A DNA stretch of 27,267 nt from IMG/VR virus record IMGVR_UViG_3300031566_000303, positions 1 to 27,267 of that record. One strand, 5' to 3'. A program made the translations under genes and the position numbers. The number at the start of each line of letters is the position of its first letter. The first letter of the stretch is position 1. The DNA comes from a virus. A model generated the notes under the pieces. It made no database searches. It had not been told where the DNA came from and saw only the letters and a program-made list of their open reading frames with translations. Shown one piece after another: positions 5,434-26,443 of the stretch.

Positions 5434-8400
5434 TTATATAGTTAGTAACACTGTTTTCTTTTTAACGTCTGTTAATGGTTTTAGCATCAATTCATGTCTA
5501 TCTGTAAAACAAAACTTTAAAGCTCCTTTTAAATCAGGCACAAAGTATGGTGGTAACCGTGGTTCCTCATCGGGTATTGCAATTACTTCAAATTTATTTC
5601 CACCCTCTATAAATTTATCATAGTTTGATCTAATTTGTTCTCTTTGAACAGGATCAGATATTTTATCAAAATCTATTCCTCTAACTCGATACATATATGC
5701 TTTTGCGCCACGCTGATGGATATCATACATGATCTTATTCCACGCTAACATTGCTTTAACCCCCTGCGGGATTACTTTATAGTCTTTTAATGCTTTTCCG
5801 AATGTTACAGGTCTTGATATTCCTTTGTCACCTTCTATAATCATTTGAGTAAATTCTCTTTCTTTTCTAGCAATATATTCAAACGTTCTTGTGATATTAA
5901 ACTTTTCTTCTTTTAAAATCAAATGTGATAATTCTTCTAAAAACTCTTTTGATTTACTTGGGTAATCAGAACGTTTAATTTCAACACCCATATAATTAAT
6001 TTTATCAACATCTTTTCCTTCATTATTAACTACACGAATGGCGTATCGTTTCTTTGCTAGAAACAATCCACGAGAAATAATCAACTCATTTTTTAACTTT
6101 AATCTATTGAAGTCCATATCAACATTATGTTTCTTTACAACCTCAACAATTTTATCTTCATTTAAAAAGTTTTCTATCTGTTTACACCAGCCATTGATAT
6201 TCTTAATTGATGTTTCCTGTTTGAAATTACCAAACATACAGAAAATAGAATCTGTATCTCCAGTTATAATATAATCTCTGCTAACATTTGAAAATTTATA
6301 TATTTCAGGATGTTTATCAGGATCAGCAAACATTTGTGCTTTTGTAATCATTGGAGGTTGTACATATGGTTTCCCTGTATCCAAATGTCTCATAAAAGCA
6401 TCACCTTCAATGATTGATGTTTTCAATGCTTCTTGTCCAGATAACGTAATTGCTGCTGCCAATGATAAATCAAAAAATCTAAATGATTTATTAGCAACAA
6501 CACCATATAATGTATTCGCCAGAACCTTATAAACCAACTGTCTTGTATAATAGAATGTTTCAGCATCTTTATCTTTTGCTTCAATGGCATCAAACATCTG
6601 TCCTTTATATTTCGTTCTTGAGGACATAATCATATCAACAACTTCACCAAATACTGAAAACTCTTTTTTATGTGGTTGAAAGAAACATCCATTTATTGTA
6701 CATACTAATTTATCATCCTTGATCTTTTTAAGTAATTCTTTTGAAGATACACTCACCAGCTTCTTTTCAAACAATGGATCTATTATAACTTTAACTTTTT
6801 CTGGGAGTGCTTCAGGTCTATATGCTATATCGTAGCCAAGATGTGGGTCTTGTGTTTTCATTACAAAACTATTAATACCAATATTATATGTAATCATAAG
6901 ACTTGGGTACAGTGATGCAAAATCGAAATCTGTAATCCAATCATATGCACCAGGTATAGGTTCTAATACAAATGCACCTGGATATTTCTTTTTCTGAATA
7001 TGTGGATCAGAGTTCTTTGATGCTAAACCTTTTTCTTTCAGATATGACACCATCAATGAATCAATCTGACCGAATGATGATACAGAATCAAAGGACGTAT
7101 TACAGATAACCCTCAGCTCGTTTAACAGGTTAATATGAGCGAGTTTATTCTCAAGTTGTTCTAATAATTCAGTATCTCTAATGTTGTAATCAATAGTTGT
7201 ATTTAACATTTTCCAATACATTTCATTGAATGGTAATGGTAGATCAAGTTTGGTTACGCCAAGTTCATGCTGTGCAATAAACCCAAGTTTATAATTTTCC
7301 ATTTTTGTAAATGTGAATGTTTTATAAACAAAATCCTGATCTATTGCCACAATTCCTGGTATATGACAAATGTATCTTTGCCCATCAACATAAAACTCAT
7401 TGAAGTTTGTTAAGCTCGTTTGTCTAATTCCTATCTGTGGCAACCTTGTGAAAATATACTGTAAATCGAAACTTATAGCATTCCATCCACATATATAATC
7501 AGCATCCTGATTTTTAAAATCAGAAATAAACTCGTTCATCATTTTCTTTTCATTGGTAAATATTTTGTATGTAATACCATCTTTCTTTTCAATTGGTTCT
7601 GTTTTATTATCAACAACATAGCAAGTCTTAGCGCCGTTGAAAATTGTGGTCAGCATGTTTATTGGAAACTTTGCTTCTGTTGGGGTTGGAAACACTCTTG
7701 ACTTTCCCGTGTCAACTTCAATATCAAAAAACATAATATTTGAATGTGTTTTAGATGGTTCACCTTTACTATAATGATAATAATCCATGGCATGTTTTGC
7801 TGTTATTTTAACATCGCCTTCGTATGTGATATCCGGGTCTAAATTAGATCTGTCTTTATAATGAACCGATATTTGATTAAGTTGCTCATATGACAAAATC
7901 TTTTTGGCGGGAACTCCTTCTGGAACTTGATAACAAACATACTCATCTGTTTCTTTATGAATTATTTTATTGTTATCTTTATCTCTAAACATATATAATA
8001 CCTGTTGACTTTTACTTAAAAATTGAACGTCAACAAGTCTATAATCTTCTGTATAATATTTTTCGGGAATTCTATATCTATGAATACCATGTCCAATTGA
8101 TTTTGCATGAACGTCTGTTTTAATTTCCTTTTTACCAGTCATCATTGAAGCTATTTTGTTCATAGCATCTTCGTACTTTGGCTCCCATAAATTTAAATTT
8201 CTATTAACAAATGATGGGTGAACGATAACAATTGTTTTATATCCATCCCATTCAACAACATTCCCATGTAATTTTGTAATGCCTGATTTTGCAATTCCAA
8301 ATGCTGACATTGGACTTGTACCCATAAGCACAACAAGTTTTGGATTACATGATCTAATCAGAGACATACAATTAATTTTGCACATATCAATAACATCATC

Positions 8401-11890: not shown

Positions 11891-12049
11891 TTAGTCTATT
11901 AATTTAGATAATTGTTTTGTATCCTCAATTTGTTTCTTCAATATATCAACTACTGCATACTCAACAAAAAAATTTATTTCCTTTTCGGAAAACTCACATT
12001 CTATTGTGCAAAAACCATCTTTGGCGTCATGAACTTTTAAGACTTTCAT
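11891..12049 (-). CDS. Small acidic protein, 52 residues
   Basis: A short frame reads MKVLKVHDAKDGFCTIECEF and continues to a lysine- and glutamate-rich helix ending KLID. It starts inside the last codons of the membrane-protein gene (12027-12269), has GGGAGAG upstream, and fills an otherwise empty gap in a tightly packed operon. These context points support it despite its size. Function unknown. Confidence 0.58.
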   Translation of the reverse strand: MKVLKVHDAKDGFCTIECEFSEKEINFFVEYAVVDILKKQIEDTKQLSKLID

Positions 12050-12269
12050 TTTCACTCTCCCATTTAATAAAGTTTATTAAAGAAAATATAAAAAGAACTA
12101 TCATTTGAAATAACAAAAACCAGTATTGCTCATAATAGAATATAATAACTTGTAAAACATAACTTGGTAAAAACACTAACCAACCATAACTATTTTTATT
12201 TCTCAACATATACAAAGCGATACAGGTTAGTATAAAAGCACCCCCTCCAAGTATATTTAAAAAATCCAT
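12027..12269 (-). CDS. Small three-helix membrane protein
   Basis: The 80-residue product is almost wholly hydrophobic, with about three membrane spans (near 5-20, 28-46 and 50-68) and a charged C-terminus (KWESENESLKSS). The size and topology recall half-transporters such as SemiSWEET, and the aromatic spacing recalls one segment of PnuC, but no diagnostic motif is visible. It overlaps the PIG-L-like gene by 13 bases. Confidence 0.65.
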   Translation of the reverse strand: MDFLNILGGGAFILTCIALYMLRNKNSYGWLVFLPSYVLQVIIFYYEQYWFLLFQMIVLFIFSLINFIKWESENESLKSS

Positions 12270-12763
12270 TTACATCTTCCTTCAAATAGAATATATTTTT
12301 TCTCATATTCCCAAAGAGATTTTTGGCTTGGATATACAGAATTAAGCAATGCTTCTTTTAAAGTTGTTTGCTCAACCTCATGTATATATGGAACATTCAT
12401 CAATGTAGTATAAAAAATAATATCTCTTCCTTCTCTTGCAAGAGATTCACCAATGAATCCCCACCCCCTATGTGCTGGATGAATTTCATTTATTGGATCA
12501 GGAAAATAAAATGTTACATTTTCTTTAGGTATTGATAACAACGGCATTGGAATAGAGTTTTGAAACATCTGTGCTTTGACGTTCTCTTTGTATTTTCTTA
12601 GAGTTATAGCTTCTTGTTTTCTTTCTATATTCATTTCACCAGAATATACAATTGTTATTCTCTTACTCGGGTCACATAGAATTTCATAACACCCAATAAT
12701 TTCATCATCCGCATGTGGTGCTATAATAATTGTTTCATGCCTTGCCTCTTTTTCTTCACTCAT
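12257..12763 (-). CDS. PIG-L/LmbE-like zinc deacetylase
   Basis: The 168-residue product has APHADDEIIG at 15-24, matching the PHPDDE zinc and catalytic motif of the LmbE/PIG-L family, and IHPAHRG at 94-100, matching the HPDH that completes the metal site. Family members remove acetyl groups from N-acetylglucosamine linked to various carriers. The length is at the short end of the family. It is the first gene of the second leftward operon, has AAAAGGAG upstream, and lies three genes from a glycosyltransferase. The substrate cannot be told. Confidence 0.8.
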   Translation of the reverse strand: MSEEKEARHETIIIAPHADDEIIGCYEILCDPSKRITIVYSGEMNIERKQEAITLRKYKENVKAQMFQNSIPMPLLSIPKENVTFYFPDPINEIHPAHRGWGFIGESLAREGRDIIFYTTLMNVPYIHEVEQTTLKEALLNSVYPSQKSLWEYEKKYILFEGRCKWIF

Positions 12764-12842
12764 GCAAAATCTCCTTTTTATTTATTTGTTACCGTCAATA
12801 AAAAATTTGTCTCAACATTATGTTCTCATTTTTATCATGCTC

Positions 12843-12865
12843 ATCTATATATATTAATTACTGAA
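12843..12865 (+). promoter_or_regulatory. Copy 2 of the 23-bp repeat, likely rightward promoter
   Basis: This is identical to 8778-8800 and in the same orientation. It lies 12 bases upstream of the closing stem of the structured segment at 12878-13211, so transcription starting just after the repeat would begin at or near the base of that stem. The region from 12764 to 12842 is otherwise AT-rich leader for the leftward operon. Confidence 0.5.
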
Positions 12866-12877
12866 TGGGAAAGTTTT

Positions 12878-13211
12878 GGTTTAAATTAGATGGGGTTTTC
12901 CAGTTTGTAAACCCAGCCGATCAACTGGATTTTCAGTATCGATAGTTAATTCTGGCTCCTTGGCGCGCCGCCGGGAAGATAACTTAGATATTCGAGAAGA
13001 TCAACTATAGCCAACGAACAGGTTACAGCACCTGGTGGTCTAGAACACAAAGCTGTAAACGGTATGGTTCATATTTCGCCACAGGGCGGGCCATTTTCAA
13101 ATCGCGCTCGCCCATCGAGGAACAGTCCTCCGGCGCCCAAGCAGACCGCAGCCAAGAAGAAATTGCTCCGGATAGCTTTTTTGAACAATCCGTTCCCCAT
13201 CTAATTTAACC
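12878..13211 (+). ncRNA. Large structured segment, candidate non-coding RNA
   Basis: No frame of useful length covers these 334 bases, and they are clearly richer in G and C than the flanks. The ends form a long stem: GGTTTAAATTAGATGGGG at 12878-12895 pairs with 13195-13211 (17 pairs, one bulged T). Inside are further local helices: TTACAGC with GCTGTAA (near 13023 and 13052), GGGCG with CGCCC (near 13084 and 13108), GAGGA-ACAG-TCCTC (near 13117), CGGAT with ATCCG (near 13169 and 13187), and a long-range CTTGGCGC with GCGCCCAAG. It does not show the conserved cores of tmRNA, RNase P RNA or group I introns. It could be a free RNA or a long leader for the gene at 13245. Confidence 0.65.
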
Positions 13212-20461: not shown

Positions 20462-20469
20462 CAAATTAA

Positions 20470-20765
20470 TTGGATTCGGTAGTGTAAACATTGAAACAGA
20501 TAAGCCCTCATATTGGGTAAATATGAAAATACAGGAGTAGCCTTGAAAGCTATCCATTGATTAGCGTAGCCGCTTATAATAGTTCAAGTTTCAAGTCTCA
20601 AGACTTTAAGTTTAACTCGGGCCGCAACGAGAATAAATAAGGCGGTTTTAAAGTTTCAAGGGCTGAAGAATCAAGTTTAGAGGTATGAGAAATACCGAGA
20701 TAAATCCAGGTCAAGTGAAGCTACTTATCAGCAACAATTCACTTCTGGCTGCTATTTGGATCCAA
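20470..20765 (+). ncRNA. Large structured segment, candidate non-coding RNA
   Basis: About 300 bases without a plausible gene. TTGGATTC (20470-20477) pairs with GGATCCAA (20758-20765) to close the domain. Inside are CATATT/AATATG (near 20510), GGAGTAGC with GCTATCC (near 20535), CCGCTTAT with ATAAGGCGG (near 20570 and 20638, one bulge), AAGTC-TCAA-GACTT (near 20595), GGTAT-GAGAA-ATACC (near 20682) and AAGTGAA/TTCACTT (near 20714 and 20737). The helices nest without conflict. It lies between the coiled-coil gene and a small gene at 20800. Confidence 0.58.
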
Positions 20766-20799: not shown

Positions 20800-20961
20800 A
20801 TGGCATCTATTCAAAATGAAGTAGAACTTTCAGAACACAAAGAAGGTGATCTATGTATCGACTGTGGTAAGGACGGTATTTCTAACTGCTACTCTGATAT
20901 GGGAAGATCAGTATTTTTGATAACTGGTCTTTGTGAAAAGTGTTTTGAATCTACAGAATAA
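20800..20961 (+). CDS. Small zinc-ribbon protein, 53 residues
   Basis: The frame begins MASIQNEVELSEHKEGDLC and has CIDCGK and CEKC pairs, a standard zinc-ribbon spacing. AAGGTG lies upstream. It fills the space between the structured segment and tRNA-Leu. Function unknown. Confidence 0.6.
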   Translation: MASIQNEVELSEHKEGDLCIDCGKDGISNCYSDMGRSVFLITGLCEKCFESTE

Positions 20962-20964
20962 CAT

Positions 20965-21049
20965 GGCCCAGTGGCGTAACTGGTAGACGCGAAAGATTTA
21001 AGATCTTTTGTCTTCGGGCGTGGGGGTTCGAGTCCCTTCTGGGCTACCA
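20965..21049 (+). tRNA. tRNA-Leu (anticodon TAA)
   Basis: The acceptor GGCCCAG pairs with CTGGGCT, the anticodon stem AAAGA/TCTTT holds TTTAAGA, the variable arm is long (TGTCTTCGGGCGT), and the T loop is TTCGAGT. CCA is encoded. Confidence 0.95.
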
Positions 21050-21055
21050 AATTAT

Positions 21056-21143
21056 GGCGATATGGTGGAAAGGGTAGACACGCTGGTTTCAAAAACCAGT
21101 TCTTTGATCGAGAGTGTGGGTTCGAGTCCCTCTATCGCCACCA
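21056..21143 (+). tRNA. tRNA-Leu (anticodon CAA)
   Basis: The acceptor GGCGATA pairs with TATCGCC, the anticodon stem CTGGT/ACCAG holds TTCAAAA, and a class II variable arm is present. The T arm is GTGGG-TTCGAGT-CCCTC and CCA is encoded. It lies six bases after the previous tRNA. Confidence 0.94.
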
Positions 21144-21191
21144 TAGTTGTTAATTATTACTTTAAGAACAAATTATAAAAATTAATGTTGA

Positions 21192-21270
21192 TGCGCGGTG
21201 GGGGAGTCTGGCCGTCCCCGGTGGTCTCATAAGCCATAGATCGAGAGTTCGAATCTCTCCTGCGCTCCCA
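21192..21270 (+). tRNA. tRNA with anticodon CAT, class I
   Basis: The acceptor GCGCGG pairs with CTGCGC; if the acceptor has seven positions the first is a T-T mismatch, as in the next tRNA. The D stem is GGGG/CCCC, the anticodon stem GTGGT/GCCAT holds CTCATAA, the variable loop has five bases, and the T arm is GAGAG-TTCGAAT-CTCTC. CAT may mean elongator Met, initiator Met or lysidine-modified Ile. An open first pair is a feature of bacterial initiator tRNA. Confidence 0.85.
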
Positions 21271-21286
21271 AAAAATTGTTATTTAA

Positions 21287-21375
21287 TGCGGAGTTGAGAA
21301 GTCTGGTCCATCTCGGGGGTCTCATAAGCCCTTGGATATTTATCCTCCCGGGTTCAAATCCCGGCTCCGCTACCA
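21287..21375 (+). tRNA. tRNA with anticodon CAT and a class II variable arm
   Basis: The acceptor TGCGGAG faces CTCCGCT with a T1-T72 mismatch, the D stem is GAGA/TCTC, the anticodon stem GGGGT/GCCCT holds CTCATAA, and the T arm is CCGGG-TTCAAAT-CCCGG. CCA is encoded. The variable region of 15 bases forms a GGAT-ATTT-ATCC stem, which is not seen in Met or Ile tRNAs. The amino acid is uncertain. Confidence 0.85.
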
Positions 21376-21382
21376 TTTTTAA

Positions 21383-21469
21383 CGCACCAGAGCTGTGGGA
21401 TGTTATTAAGTATTTAATCTGGCCAGATTAAATGCGATACATAATAACTACCATTCCGGATATGGTGCG
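21383..21469 (+). ncRNA. Cruciform-like structured element
   Basis: CGCACCA (21383-21389) pairs with TGGTGCG (21463-21469). Inside, GTTATTA (21402-21408) pairs with TAATAAC (21442-21448), and within that is a perfect 22-base palindrome at 21412-21433 (centre CTGGCCAG). A small CCAT/ATGG hairpin lies next to the closing stem. No gene covers it. It could be an RNA element or a DNA cruciform. Confidence 0.5.
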
Positions 21470-21476
21470 ACCAATT

Positions 21477-21647
21477 TTGGATGCCTTACAAAAATAATTG
21501 TGAGAAAGCAACCCAGATGGGTCTAAGACGAGCCACAGAAAACTCATGGTCATTGGACGCATTGGTCATGGTAAGTCCTGTTGACGTGAGCCAGAGCAAT
21601 GGTATAAGCGGCGCTCCTAAGTGCAGATCTTGCCAAAAGGCATCCAA
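21477..21647 (+). ncRNA. Structured segment of about 171 nt
   Basis: A perfect 11-bp stem, TTGGATGCCTT (21477-21487) with AAGGCATCCAA (21637-21647), closes the segment. The interior is GC-richer than coding neighbours and contains several GG-rich motifs including GGACGCAT, which is also present in the element at 23274-23400. No frame of useful length. Candidate non-coding RNA. Confidence 0.5.
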
Positions 21648-21656
21648 TTAAAAATT

Positions 21657-21803
21657 CTGACCTATTCCTGTACACCCAAGCGTTTGGCTGGAAGTGCTAT
21701 AAGGGGGGTTTAAGCCTGCTTTACAAAGTAGGTGCTTCCGATTGGCTGGTTTCAAAGGGGAAAATCTAGAAAAGTACCCAGAGATAAAATTAGGGTAGGT
21801 CGG
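21657..21803 (+). ncRNA. Structured segment of about 147 nt
   Basis: CTGACCTATTC (21657-21667) pairs with GGGTAGGTCGG (21793-21803) over 11 positions including G-T pairs. Inside, CCTGCTT/AAGTAGG (near 21716) forms a hairpin, enclosed by GGAAG/CTTCC. TTGGCTGG occurs twice, on either side of that hairpin. No gene covers it. Less convincing than the neighbouring elements because of the wobble pairs. Confidence 0.4.
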
Positions 21804-21819
21804 GCATGTTTTATTGTGA

Positions 21820-21926
21820 TTGTGGGAAGGGTGGTGAGACGCTTAGCGATTCAGCGATCCTTTCCATAACAACAAATGTGGGGATGGCGGTGAGATGCTT
21901 AGCAACTCGGCGGTCATCCCCACATT
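21820..21926 (+). ncRNA. Tandem pair of homologous hairpins with compensatory changes
   Basis: Hairpin 1 (21820-21869) has the stem TTGTGGGAAGG/CCTTTCCATAA; hairpin 2 (21875-21926) has AATGTGGGGATG/CATCCCCACATT. The stems differ in sequence, but both carry a 28-base apical part that is alike at 22 positions, with the shared cores GGTGAGA and GCTTAGC. Of the six differences, two pairs are compensatory (T-A to C-G at positions 2/27, C-G to T-A at 10/18) and the other two keep pairing through G-T. The pattern is that of selection for RNA structure. It lies just upstream of the gene at 21945, so it could be a leader element or a separate RNA. Confidence 0.7.
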
Positions 21927-21944
21927 TTAACAAAGGAAAATTTT

Positions 21945-22313
21945 ATGATAAGTAAAAATGCAATGAAAACATTTGAGTTTGATGACTCTATATTTTATCG
22001 TGTTGCTTGCTCTTGTGGAGCTGATGAACATGATATTACTGTTGAGTTTGAAAGAGATAATCAAATTGAATCTATGATCTTTTTAAATTTTCATAAAAAT
22101 GTTAGTTGGTGCCCTGGATGGGAGAAAGCCAATATATTTCAAAAATTTTGGAAAAGATTAACAGGGTCACTTAGGATGTTGTTTACCGGTTATATTGAGG
22201 TAGAGGAGAGCTTTATTTTAAGCGAAAATAACATTCAACCTTTTATAGATGCTCTTATAGAAGGAAAGGGTTATATTGAAAATAAAAGGACTGATCATGG
22301 AGAAGAGGTGTAA
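21945..22313 (+). CDS. Unrecognised phage protein with CSCG motif
   Basis: The 122-residue product contains VACSCGADEHDITVEFERD, then FWKRLTGSLRMLFTGYIEVEESFIL. Proteins with this CxCG plus LFTGYIE layout occur in many tailed phages as far as I recall, with no known function. AAAGGAAAA precedes the ATG. The last 15 bases lie inside the following tRNA-like sequence. Confidence 0.68.
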   Translation: MISKNAMKTFEFDDSIFYRVACSCGADEHDITVEFERDNQIESMIFLNFHKNVSWCPGWEKANIFQKFWKRLTGSLRMLFTGYIEVEESFILSENNIQPFIDALIEGKGYIENKRTDHGEEV

Positions 22314-22408
22314 CTGGTAGACACAACGGGCAGAGGTTGAAGTTGTAACCGTAGGGAAAGGACGTCCTCAAATGCCTCCCTGTACAGGTTCGAGTCCTGT
22401 CTTCTCCG
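22299..22408 (+). tRNA. Oversized tRNA-like gene, probably degenerate
   Basis: The acceptor GGAGAAG pairs with CTTCTCC, the D arm GTGT-AACTGGTAG-ACAC looks like tRNA-Leu or tRNA-Ser, and the T arm ACAGG-TTCGAGT-CCTGT is intact. Between them are about 58 bases in place of the usual 17 plus a variable arm: ACGG/CCGT would enclose a loop far longer than seven, and AGGGA/TCCCT makes an unusually long variable arm. The 3' end reads GCA, not GCCA. I cannot assign an anticodon. A pseudogene, an intron-bearing gene or a tRNA-like RNA are all possible. Confidence 0.5.
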
Positions 22409-22423
22409 CAGAATTATTAAAAT

Positions 22424-22458
22424 GGTGAGTTGCCCGAGTATGGCTAAAAGCACCAGAT
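22424..22458 (+). pseudogene. Truncated 5' part of a tRNA-Ser-like gene
   Basis: GGTGAGTTGCCCGAGTATGG followed by CTAAAAGC resembles the acceptor 5' strand and D arm of a class II tRNA. The sequence then breaks off into AT-rich leader of the homing endonuclease gene, and no matching 3' part follows. Similarity is by eye over about 35 bases. Confidence 0.4.
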
Positions 22459-22498
22459 TAATTTCTTTTTAGAACAAAAATAAAAAAGGAATTAAGTT

Positions 22499-23197
22499 AT
22501 GATTTGTAATTACGGTTGTGGGTTAAAAGCTTCATTTCAACTGAAAAATAAAAAATGGTGTTGTTGTAAATTTCCAAATCAATGTCCATCTGTTAGAAAG
22601 AAAAACTCAAATTCTCTTAAAAATATTACTAAAAAAAGAGTTCGCTCGGGTCCTGGCCCAATGACTGGAAAAATACCATGGAATAAAGGGCTAACAAAAA
22701 AAGACGATATACGAATAGCTATTGGTACAGAAAAAGCAAAAAGAACTAATAAAAAAAATGGACCTAGTTTCTTAGGAAAAAAACATTCTATAGAAACAAG
22801 AGAAAAAATGAGTAAAACCAGAACAGAAATGTATATTAATGGATGGAAAGCAACTTCTTGTGGAAGGGCAAAAAAATATGATTATATAAGTCCTATTGCA
22901 GGAAAAATTAAAGTTGATGGTAAATGGGAATTAGCAGTCGCAAAGTATCTAGACAGTTTAAATATTAATTGGTATAGAAATACAAAAAGATTTTCATATA
23001 TAAATCTCAAGGGAAAAAAATCAACCTATTGTCCAGATTTTTATATTTATGATTGGAATTCTTATTTAGAAATTAAAGGTTATAAGACAGATCTTGATAA
23101 ATGTAAATGGTCTCAGTTCCCAAAAAAGTTAGAAATTTGGACTTATAATATTTTACTTCAAAAAGGTTTAATTAATAAAAGTGGAGAGATGGTGTAA
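22499..23197 (+). CDS. Putative homing endonuclease (NUMOD3-like repeats, PD-(D/E)XK-like C-terminus)
   Basis: The 232-residue product has an N-terminal cysteine cluster (CNYGCG, CCCKFPNQCP), then GKIPWNKGL and GKKHSIETREKMSKT, which match the NUMOD3 DNA-binding repeats of phage homing endonucleases. The C-terminal domain has WELAVAKYLDSL, then YCPDFYIYD and YLEIKGYK, which fits E, PD and ExK of the PD-(D/E)XK nuclease fold. It is placed exactly between a truncated tRNA-like sequence and tRNA-Ser, as expected of a mobile intergenic endonuclease. AAAAAGGAA precedes the ATG. The final 15 bases overlap tRNA-Ser. Confidence 0.75.
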   Translation: MICNYGCGLKASFQLKNKKWCCCKFPNQCPSVRKKNSNSLKNITKKRVRSGPGPMTGKIPWNKGLTKKDDIRIAIGTEKAKRTNKKNGPSFLGKKHSIETREKMSKTRTEMYINGWKATSCGRAKKYDYISPIAGKIKVDGKWELAVAKYLDSLNINWYRNTKRFSYINLKGKKSTYCPDFYIYDWNSYLEIKGYKTDLDKCKWSQFPKKLEIWTYNILLQKGLINKSGEMV

Positions 23198-23269
23198 TGG
23201 TATCACAACGCCCCGCTAAGGCGTCCAGGTGAAATCCCTGTGCAGGTTCGAGTCCTGTTCTCTCCGCCA
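23183..23269 (+). tRNA. tRNA-Ser (anticodon GCT)
   Basis: The acceptor GGAGAGA pairs with TCTCTCC (one G-T-type variation near the base), the anticodon stem ACGCC/GGCGT holds CCGCTAA, and a long variable arm and G73 before CCA are typical of tRNA-Ser. The T arm is GCAGG-TTCGAGT-CCTGT. Confidence 0.93.
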
Positions 23270-23273
23270 TTTT

Positions 23274-23400
23274 GACAAGAGAGGTCTGGGTGAAGAAAGT
23301 TTGGTCAACCCCAGTTCAGTGGATAGGATGCGAGTGTAGTAAGACAATGGTTCGCCAAACAGTCTAATCTTACACACTGCGGACGCATGTCGCTCTTGTC
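23274..23400 (+). ncRNA. Structured segment with possible kissing-loop pseudoknot
   Basis: GACAAGAG (23274-23281) pairs with CTCTTGTC (23393-23400). Inside are CTGGG/CCCAG (23286-23290, 23310-23314), ATGCG/CGCAT (23328-23332, 23384-23388) and GTGT plus TAAGA with TCTTA plus ACAC (23334-23344, 23368-23377). The loop of the first hairpin holds GTTTGG (23299-23304), which is complementary to CCAAAC (23355-23360) in the loop of the last, suggesting a kissing interaction. No gene covers it. It follows tRNA-Ser by four bases. Confidence 0.6.
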
Positions 23401-23433
23401 ATTACAACCAATTTTTAAAAGAAAGGATTGAAT

Positions 23434-23633: not shown

Positions 23634-23960
23634 ATGTTATATAATATAATCATACTTTTGTGGTTGCACTTTATTGCTGATTTCGTTTTACAATCTACAT
23701 ATATGGCAATGAATAAGAGTAAAAATTCATTAGCTCTTTTGTGGCACTGTTTTGTTTATGCATTACCATTGATTGGTTTCGGATGGCAATTTGCTATTCT
23801 AAATGGTTTATTACATTTTCCAGTTGACTTTATTACATCAAGAATTACTTCCAGATTATATAATAAAAAGGATGCACATTGGTTCTTTGTTGTCATTGGA
23901 TTAGATCAAGTAATACATATGACAATATTAATCTTAACCTTAAATTGGTTATTCATATGA
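23634..23960 (+). CDS. DUF3307-like membrane protein
   Basis: The 108-residue product has [20 protein letters not shown] near the N-terminus, the signature of DUF3307 membrane proteins, and about three to four hydrophobic helices. AAGGAG precedes the ATG. Function of the family is unknown. A diverged copy of its last 18 codons lies downstream at 24107-24174. Confidence 0.78.
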
Positions 23961-26013: not shown

Positions 26014-26082
26014 AAAAGAAAGGAATTTGTCAATGAAATGTATTGAAAAGCATGGAGACATTAAAAGAGTCAAGGATGAAGT
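26014..26082 (+). repeat. 69-bp exact direct repeat, copy 1
   Basis: Identical to 26375-26443. The repeat covers the ribosome binding site (AAAGGAA) and the first 16 or so codons of the small gene at 26394-26522. The two copies flank the membrane-protein gene at 26089. Confidence 0.9.
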
Positions 26083-26089: not shown

Positions 26090-26376
26090 TGAAAAATCCT
26101 TTTTGTAGAAAATGTTTGGTAAAAACTATGTGTACAAAGAAATGTGATTATATGCGAAAGATATTACATATATTTGATATAGCAACATCACTTATATGGC
26201 CCATATACTTCTTTCTTATTATTATAGTAGTTGTTTTTATATTAATGATGACTGAGGTTATTCCAGATCAAATGATAGCTATATCAATAGTACCATTTCA
26301 ACTCCTGTGGATTCTTGCAATTGCAGGTCTAATAAAAGTAAAAGAAAAGATTGAATCTCAATTTGAAAATAACTAA
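26089..26376 (+). CDS. Small membrane protein with CxxCLV cysteine motif
   Basis: The 95-residue product starts at a GTG and reads MKNPFCRKCLVKTMCTKKCD, followed by two membrane helices (about 36-60 and 67-84). The cysteine motif is shared with 14997-15410 and 17047-17307. It sits between the two copies of the 69-bp repeat, which suggests it arrived or was duplicated with that segment. Confidence 0.66.
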   Translation: MKNPFCRKCLVKTMCTKKCDYMRKILHIFDIATSLIWPIYFFLIIIVVVFILMMTEVIPDQMIAISIVPFQLLWILAIAGLIKVKEKIESQFENN

Positions 26377-26443
26377 AAGAAAGGAATTTGTCAATGAAAT
26401 GTATTGAAAAGCATGGAGACATTAAAAGAGTCAAGGATGAAGT
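26375..26443 (+). repeat. 69-bp exact direct repeat, copy 2
   Basis: Identical to 26014-26082. This copy continues into the intact small gene. Confidence 0.9.

Follow-up and report, generated by a model that had tools for sequence, protein, structure and literature searches.

Tandem RNA hairpins with compensatory base changes in the tRNA array of a probable large phage

Bacteriophage T4 encodes two small structured RNAs, rnaC and rnaD (the species 1 and 2 small stable RNAs, 139 and 119 nt), on the tRNA strand of a tRNA cluster that also holds a homing endonuclease. Both have been described as late RNAs of yet unknown function (PMC9697503). The ROOL and GOLLD RNAs, also structured and of unknown function, occur in phages and prophages and often lie near tRNA islands (PMC12286853). 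A further point of reference is the put RNA of phage HK022, which is about 70 nt long, folds into two stem-loops, and suppresses both intrinsic and Rho-dependent termination with no dedicated protein factor (PMC9378689).

We analyzed an IMG/VR record of viral origin that is 27,267 bases long and is referred to here at its full length as the window. The window carries 12 tRNA genes, all in the stretch from 14.8 to 27 kb, and encodes a T4-type family-B DNA polymerase with about 26% identity to myovirus polymerases, along with a nicotinate phosphoribosyltransferase, an NAD synthase, and a QueE-like protein; its source is probably a large phage. Two hairpins in tandem, HP1 and HP2, sit in a 570-nt non-coding spacer that runs from a tRNA-Met gene to a gene encoding a 122-aa protein, with no open reading frame of at least 50 aa covering them. 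The spacer also contains other compact folding units (X1, X2, and Y), and the tRNAs and genes in this half of the window are encoded on the same strand as the hairpins. We identified orthologues of the 122-aa gene on a 24-kb IMG/VR fragment (L003/L004; 75% identity) and on a 223-kb IMG/VR contig (L006; 60% identity). The relevant elements of the array are as follows:

20462-20700: element W, non-coding, before tRNA-Leu; 79% identical to its counterpart at 6520-6846 of L004
21383-21469: X1, a compact fold closed, like X2, by a helix of 7-11 bp
21474-21651: X2, a compact fold
21655-21812, + strand: RNA Y, closed by a 14-bp helix, with the tail ATTAGGGTAGGTNGGGCAT, directly upstream of HP1; counterparts at 7136-7254 of L004 and about 7865-7985 of L006
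21820-21869, + strand: HP1, a hairpin of ~50 nt
21876-21925 in register, + strand: HP2, with a lower stem that reaches 21874-21927 and has 2 pairs more than that of HP1
21932-21937: Shine-Dalgarno-like AAAGGA, 4 nt past the end of HP2
21945-22313, + strand: gene for the 122-aa protein, conserved in both relatives
22499-23197: candidate homing endonuclease open reading frame, with a weak NUMOD3 match
23271-23403: RNA Z, after tRNA-Ser, closed by TGACAAGAG/CTCTTGTCA, with 39 predicted pairs; counterpart at 7806-7941 of L004

Like rnaC and rnaD, the hairpin pair is a small structured RNA on the tRNA strand of a phage tRNA cluster, and its array likewise includes a candidate homing endonuclease. 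The T4 RNAs differ from the pair in having no tandem hairpin duplication and no sequence similarity to it, and neither they nor the T4 tRNA region matched a model of the hairpins. ROOL and GOLLD show a looser likeness, as phage RNAs near tRNAs, and are distinguished by very large size (many GOLLD RNAs exceed 800 nt) and complex folds, in contrast to the ~108-nt pair of simple hairpins found here, which has no Rfam match. In guanidine-II (mini-ykkC) and other tandem-hairpin riboswitches, a gene is likewise preceded by a hairpin and a near copy of it, with ACGR loops in the case of guanidine-II. HP1 and HP2 instead have UUA loops and no Rfam match, and the orthologous gene in this lineage occurs without the hairpins. 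HK022 put resembles the pair in that one stem-loop directly adjoins another in a phage RNA and non-canonical pairs are present (PMC9378689), but the two stems of put differ from one another and put lies downstream of early promoters. By analogy, we would place the pair with the small structured RNAs encoded in phage tRNA clusters, as a member whose own structure is undescribed. For rnaC and rnaD, the phage lineage of the window provides a comparative way in.

From base to tip, HP1 comprises a 13-bp lower stem, a G.G mismatch and a bulged G, a 5-bp middle stem, an A.A mismatch, a 3-bp top stem, and a UUA triloop. The middle stem consists of one G-C pair with the bulged G on its 3' side, followed by four further pairs. 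HP2 adopts the same fold in register with a 15-bp lower stem, and the two copies, offset by a repeat unit of 56 nt, align without gaps. The initial annotation had located both hairpins correctly. Their predicted folding energies are -24.1 kcal/mol for HP1 (z = -5.5), -33.8 kcal/mol for HP2 (z = -7.4), and -60.4 kcal/mol for the two together (z = -7.7), with none of 200 dinucleotide shuffles as good in any of the three comparisons. A scan of the window from 13.2 to 27.2 kb in 100-nt segments reached its lowest z, -6.4, at 21851-21950, a segment that overlaps the hairpin pair. Neither hairpin was listed in a terminator scan and just four U residues follow HP2, ruling both out as intrinsic terminators.

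The two copies are identical at 36 of 50 positions, and all 14 differences fall at paired positions. Despite this divergence, no standard pair is broken in either hairpin (21/21 in each): five pairs are altered on both sides (T-A/A-T, A-T/G-C, G-C/T-A, T-A/C-G, and C-G/T-A), and four are altered on one side via G-U pairing. The eight unpaired bases are the same in both copies, an identity that we calculate would arise by chance about 6% of the time and that is weak evidence on its own. When 14 substitutions were scattered at random in each simulation, with transitions as frequent as those observed, all 21 pairs were kept in 719 of 2,000,000 simulations, and all 21 pairs together with at least five two-sided changes in 4 of 2,000,000; these figures are optimistic, as the structure was derived from the same two copies being scored. 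The pairing is also strand-specific. Read as the - strand, 17/21 and 19/21 pairs survive in the two hairpins, and the pair folds at -40.5 kcal/mol versus -60.3 kcal/mol on the + strand. Since the G-U pairs work solely on the + strand, the element is an RNA structure.

These sequence comparisons, in which covariation is drawn from two paralogous copies in one genome, make it near-certain that the predicted structure is real. Because the copies have diverged by a quarter without losing one base pair, the shape almost certainly serves some use. The initial annotation had described tandem hairpins with a common apex and compensatory changes, and had proposed a selected RNA shape present twice; the former is confirmed more strongly than was claimed, with 21/21 pairs intact and five changed on both sides, and the latter is well supported by the shuffling, two-sided changes, strand comparison, and simulation. 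Its reading, in which the apex is the shared part and the lower stems differ in sequence, needs correction: the lower stems agree at 14/22 positions (64%), next to 22/28 (79%) in the apex. The lower stems are thus homologous as well, and the pair is an old tandem duplication of the entire hairpin, not of the apex alone. With fully compensatory changes between diverged copies, a single contig gives direct evidence of selection on RNA shape.

We searched for further copies in IMG/VR, GTDB contigs, phage and plasmid records, and Rfam, and found none at the sensitivity used; the collection scans relied on exact patterns, which diverged members could escape. A strict apex pattern had 0 hits in IMG/VR. 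A looser pattern returned 34 matches, mostly one recurring sequence and all lacking the stem, and a third returned 17, each of them a version of a single recurring sequence that does not adopt the fold. Among five pattern matches in GTDB contigs, one (L050) lies by our reading inside a folC-like gene, and another (L049), intergenic in a Chloroflexota contig, scores 22.3 bits, which is background level; the remaining matches are weaker. Model scores reached 26 bits across 150 genomes of the class of L049, so the best outside scores of 22-26 bits represent background. A match in Vibrio campbellii has seven broken pairs, and a distant blastn search against phages gave just two 19-nt matches. Only tRNAs pass the Rfam 15 gathering threshold in the window. 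The best Rfam match on the hairpins is snoR135, which scores 16.9 bits where the cut-off is 45, and we dismissed matches to plant and animal snoRNAs and miRNAs at 13-17 bits; no Rfam riboswitch or leader family matched the hairpins, permissive filters included. The initial annotation had looked to further copies as the check on the shape, and the family stands at two copies in one genome. Since the hairpin is short and this phage group is poorly sampled, the empty search does not refute the shape.

The protein encoded by the gene at 21945 could be assigned to no family from Pfam, PHROGs, or PADLOC, nor to any from NCBIfam at its cut-offs, and its AlphaFold model, with a pLDDT of 45, is too poor to judge the fold. 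Y precedes the orthologous gene in both L004 and L006, and a covariance model of the hairpin pair found no copy in the whole records of these two relatives. In L004 the slot between Y and the gene holds a different long hairpin (7258-7345), and in L006 it is empty, with Y directly before the gene. The slot is therefore variable, occupied by the tandem hairpins, by another hairpin, or by nothing. That both orthologues lack the hairpins argues against an obligatory riboswitch for this gene, on a comparison of upstream regions that covers two relatives. The riboswitch or protein-binding leader suggested in the initial annotation is accordingly weakened, as genes of 75% and 60% identity occur without such hairpins. 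L006 carries a larger tRNA array than the window. At 11992-12063 it has a predicted tRNA-Pyl whose anticodon is CTA and which could be an amber suppressor, and at 12655-13040 a tmRNA.

Among the other RNAs of the array, Y differs between the window and L004 by five two-sided changes, and Z is 90% identical to its L004 copy with two two-sided changes; X1 and X2 had no match in the relatives. None of W, Y, and Z reaches an Rfam gathering score, and permissive Rfam searches of 20900-22500 and of Z returned no credible family. These neighboring elements suggest that large-phage tRNA arrays contain several unnamed structured RNAs, with W, Y, and Z conserved and others swapped between relatives.

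As to function, we infer, as our leading but still tentative reading, that the hairpin pair is a lineage-specific, duplicated protein-binding RNA, one of the small structured RNAs of the tRNA array and not an obligatory switch for the downstream gene. The sequence shows that an ancestral RNA hairpin of ~50 nt in the tRNA array was duplicated in tandem and that selection has retained both copies for one structure, from the lower stem to the UUA triloop. Beyond this, the pair would be transcribed with the tRNAs and adjoining structured RNAs, may persist as a small stable RNA, either excised or as a protected piece, and could offer two binding sites to a phage or host protein that recognizes the non-canonical upper part. 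The position of the hairpins in a non-coding spacer on the tRNA sense strand is consistent with this model, as are the other unannotated RNA-like elements of the array (Y, Z, and W), the variable content of the slot between Y and the gene, and the presence of rnaC and rnaD beside the tRNA genes of T4. On the other side, the end of HP2 so close to the Shine-Dalgarno-like stretch is a typical place for a cis element, the unpaired bases are too few for their identity to argue strongly for a sequence-reading partner, and the covariation comes from two paralogues with no copy found in other genomes. We are more doubtful of the broader proposal that the pair represents a class of phage small RNAs not described before, one in which the hairpin is duplicated and its conserved, non-canonical upper part would capture a protein of the phage or its host. 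The pair would then belong to a rapidly exchanged set of unnamed structured RNAs (W, X1, X2, Y, the hairpin pair, and Z) among the tRNA genes of a large-phage lineage.

Because HP2 ends 4 nt before AAAGGA, the main rival is a cis-acting leader, in which a protein or small molecule bound to the hairpins would govern how the downstream mRNA is translated or how stable it is, as with a tandem operator or riboswitch. The placement directly 5' of the Shine-Dalgarno-like stretch, the tandem layout with conserved internal loops, and the occurrence of structured RNA before the gene in 3/3 phages all favor such a leader, but we judge it rather unlikely given the two relatives whose orthologous gene lacks these hairpins, the absence of a match to Rfam riboswitch and leader families even with permissive filters, and the lack of any visible alternative terminator or anti-Shine-Dalgarno arm. 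A processing or stabilizing role, which we rank third, is less probable again. Here the hairpins would be RNase III substrates or 5' protecting structures that part Y from the mRNA, requiring a long irregular duplex and little specific sequence. This role would suit duplexes that are long, have small internal loops, and stand between two functional parts of a single transcript, and the other long hairpin that fills the slot in L004 is consistent with a requirement for shape and not sequence. L006, with Y right before the gene, manages with no such hairpin. Nor would a plain processing site explain why the bulged G, the two mismatches, and the triloop are retained in both copies, although this is modest evidence.

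The remaining explanations carry much less weight. Transcription through a tRNA array that is long and untranslated could call for antitermination, and two stem-loops acting on RNA polymerase in the manner of HK022 put might let it pass terminators; we consider this very unlikely, as the hairpins lie late in the array with no early promoter visible ahead of them, HP1 and HP2 resemble each other while the two put stems do not, and Rfam, through which the comparison with put was made, gave no credible match. Tandem RNA repeats ahead of a small gene also recall type III toxin-antitoxin pairs, whose antitoxin is an RNA, and RNA anti-CRISPRs, the latter in keeping with repeat-mimicking RNAs encoded by phages (PMC10651486). 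That idea is highly improbable: the downstream protein matches nothing in Pfam, PHROGs, or PADLOC and nothing at NCBIfam cut-offs, ToxN/AbiQ-like endoribonucleases included, and its gene occurs without the repeats in two relatives. Finally, the failure to find further copies might speak for a coincidental likeness, or for an inverted repeat that matters in the DNA and lacks RNA function, but such a reading is scarcely credible in the face of z values from -5.5 to -7.7, equal compensation in so few neutral simulations, and G-U changes that pair only as + strand RNA.

The array downstream of the hairpins has further irregularities. At 22424-23269, a 5' piece of tRNA-Ser (GGTGAGTTGCCCGAGTATGGC) is followed by the candidate homing endonuclease gene and then by a complete tRNA-Ser, an arrangement that looks like an insertion into a tRNA gene with duplication of part of that gene. 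A tRNA-like sequence at 22297-22409 has the acceptor stem GGAGAAG/CTTCTCC, a normal T arm, and an overlong middle; it was not called by ARAGORN, matched Rfam tRNA-Sec at 18.8 bits only, and is possibly an interrupted or degenerate tRNA. The window also contains an exact 69-nt direct repeat at 26014-26082 and 26375-26443, 361 nt apart, and a second, 70-nt repeat of 93% identity at 23903 and 24107.
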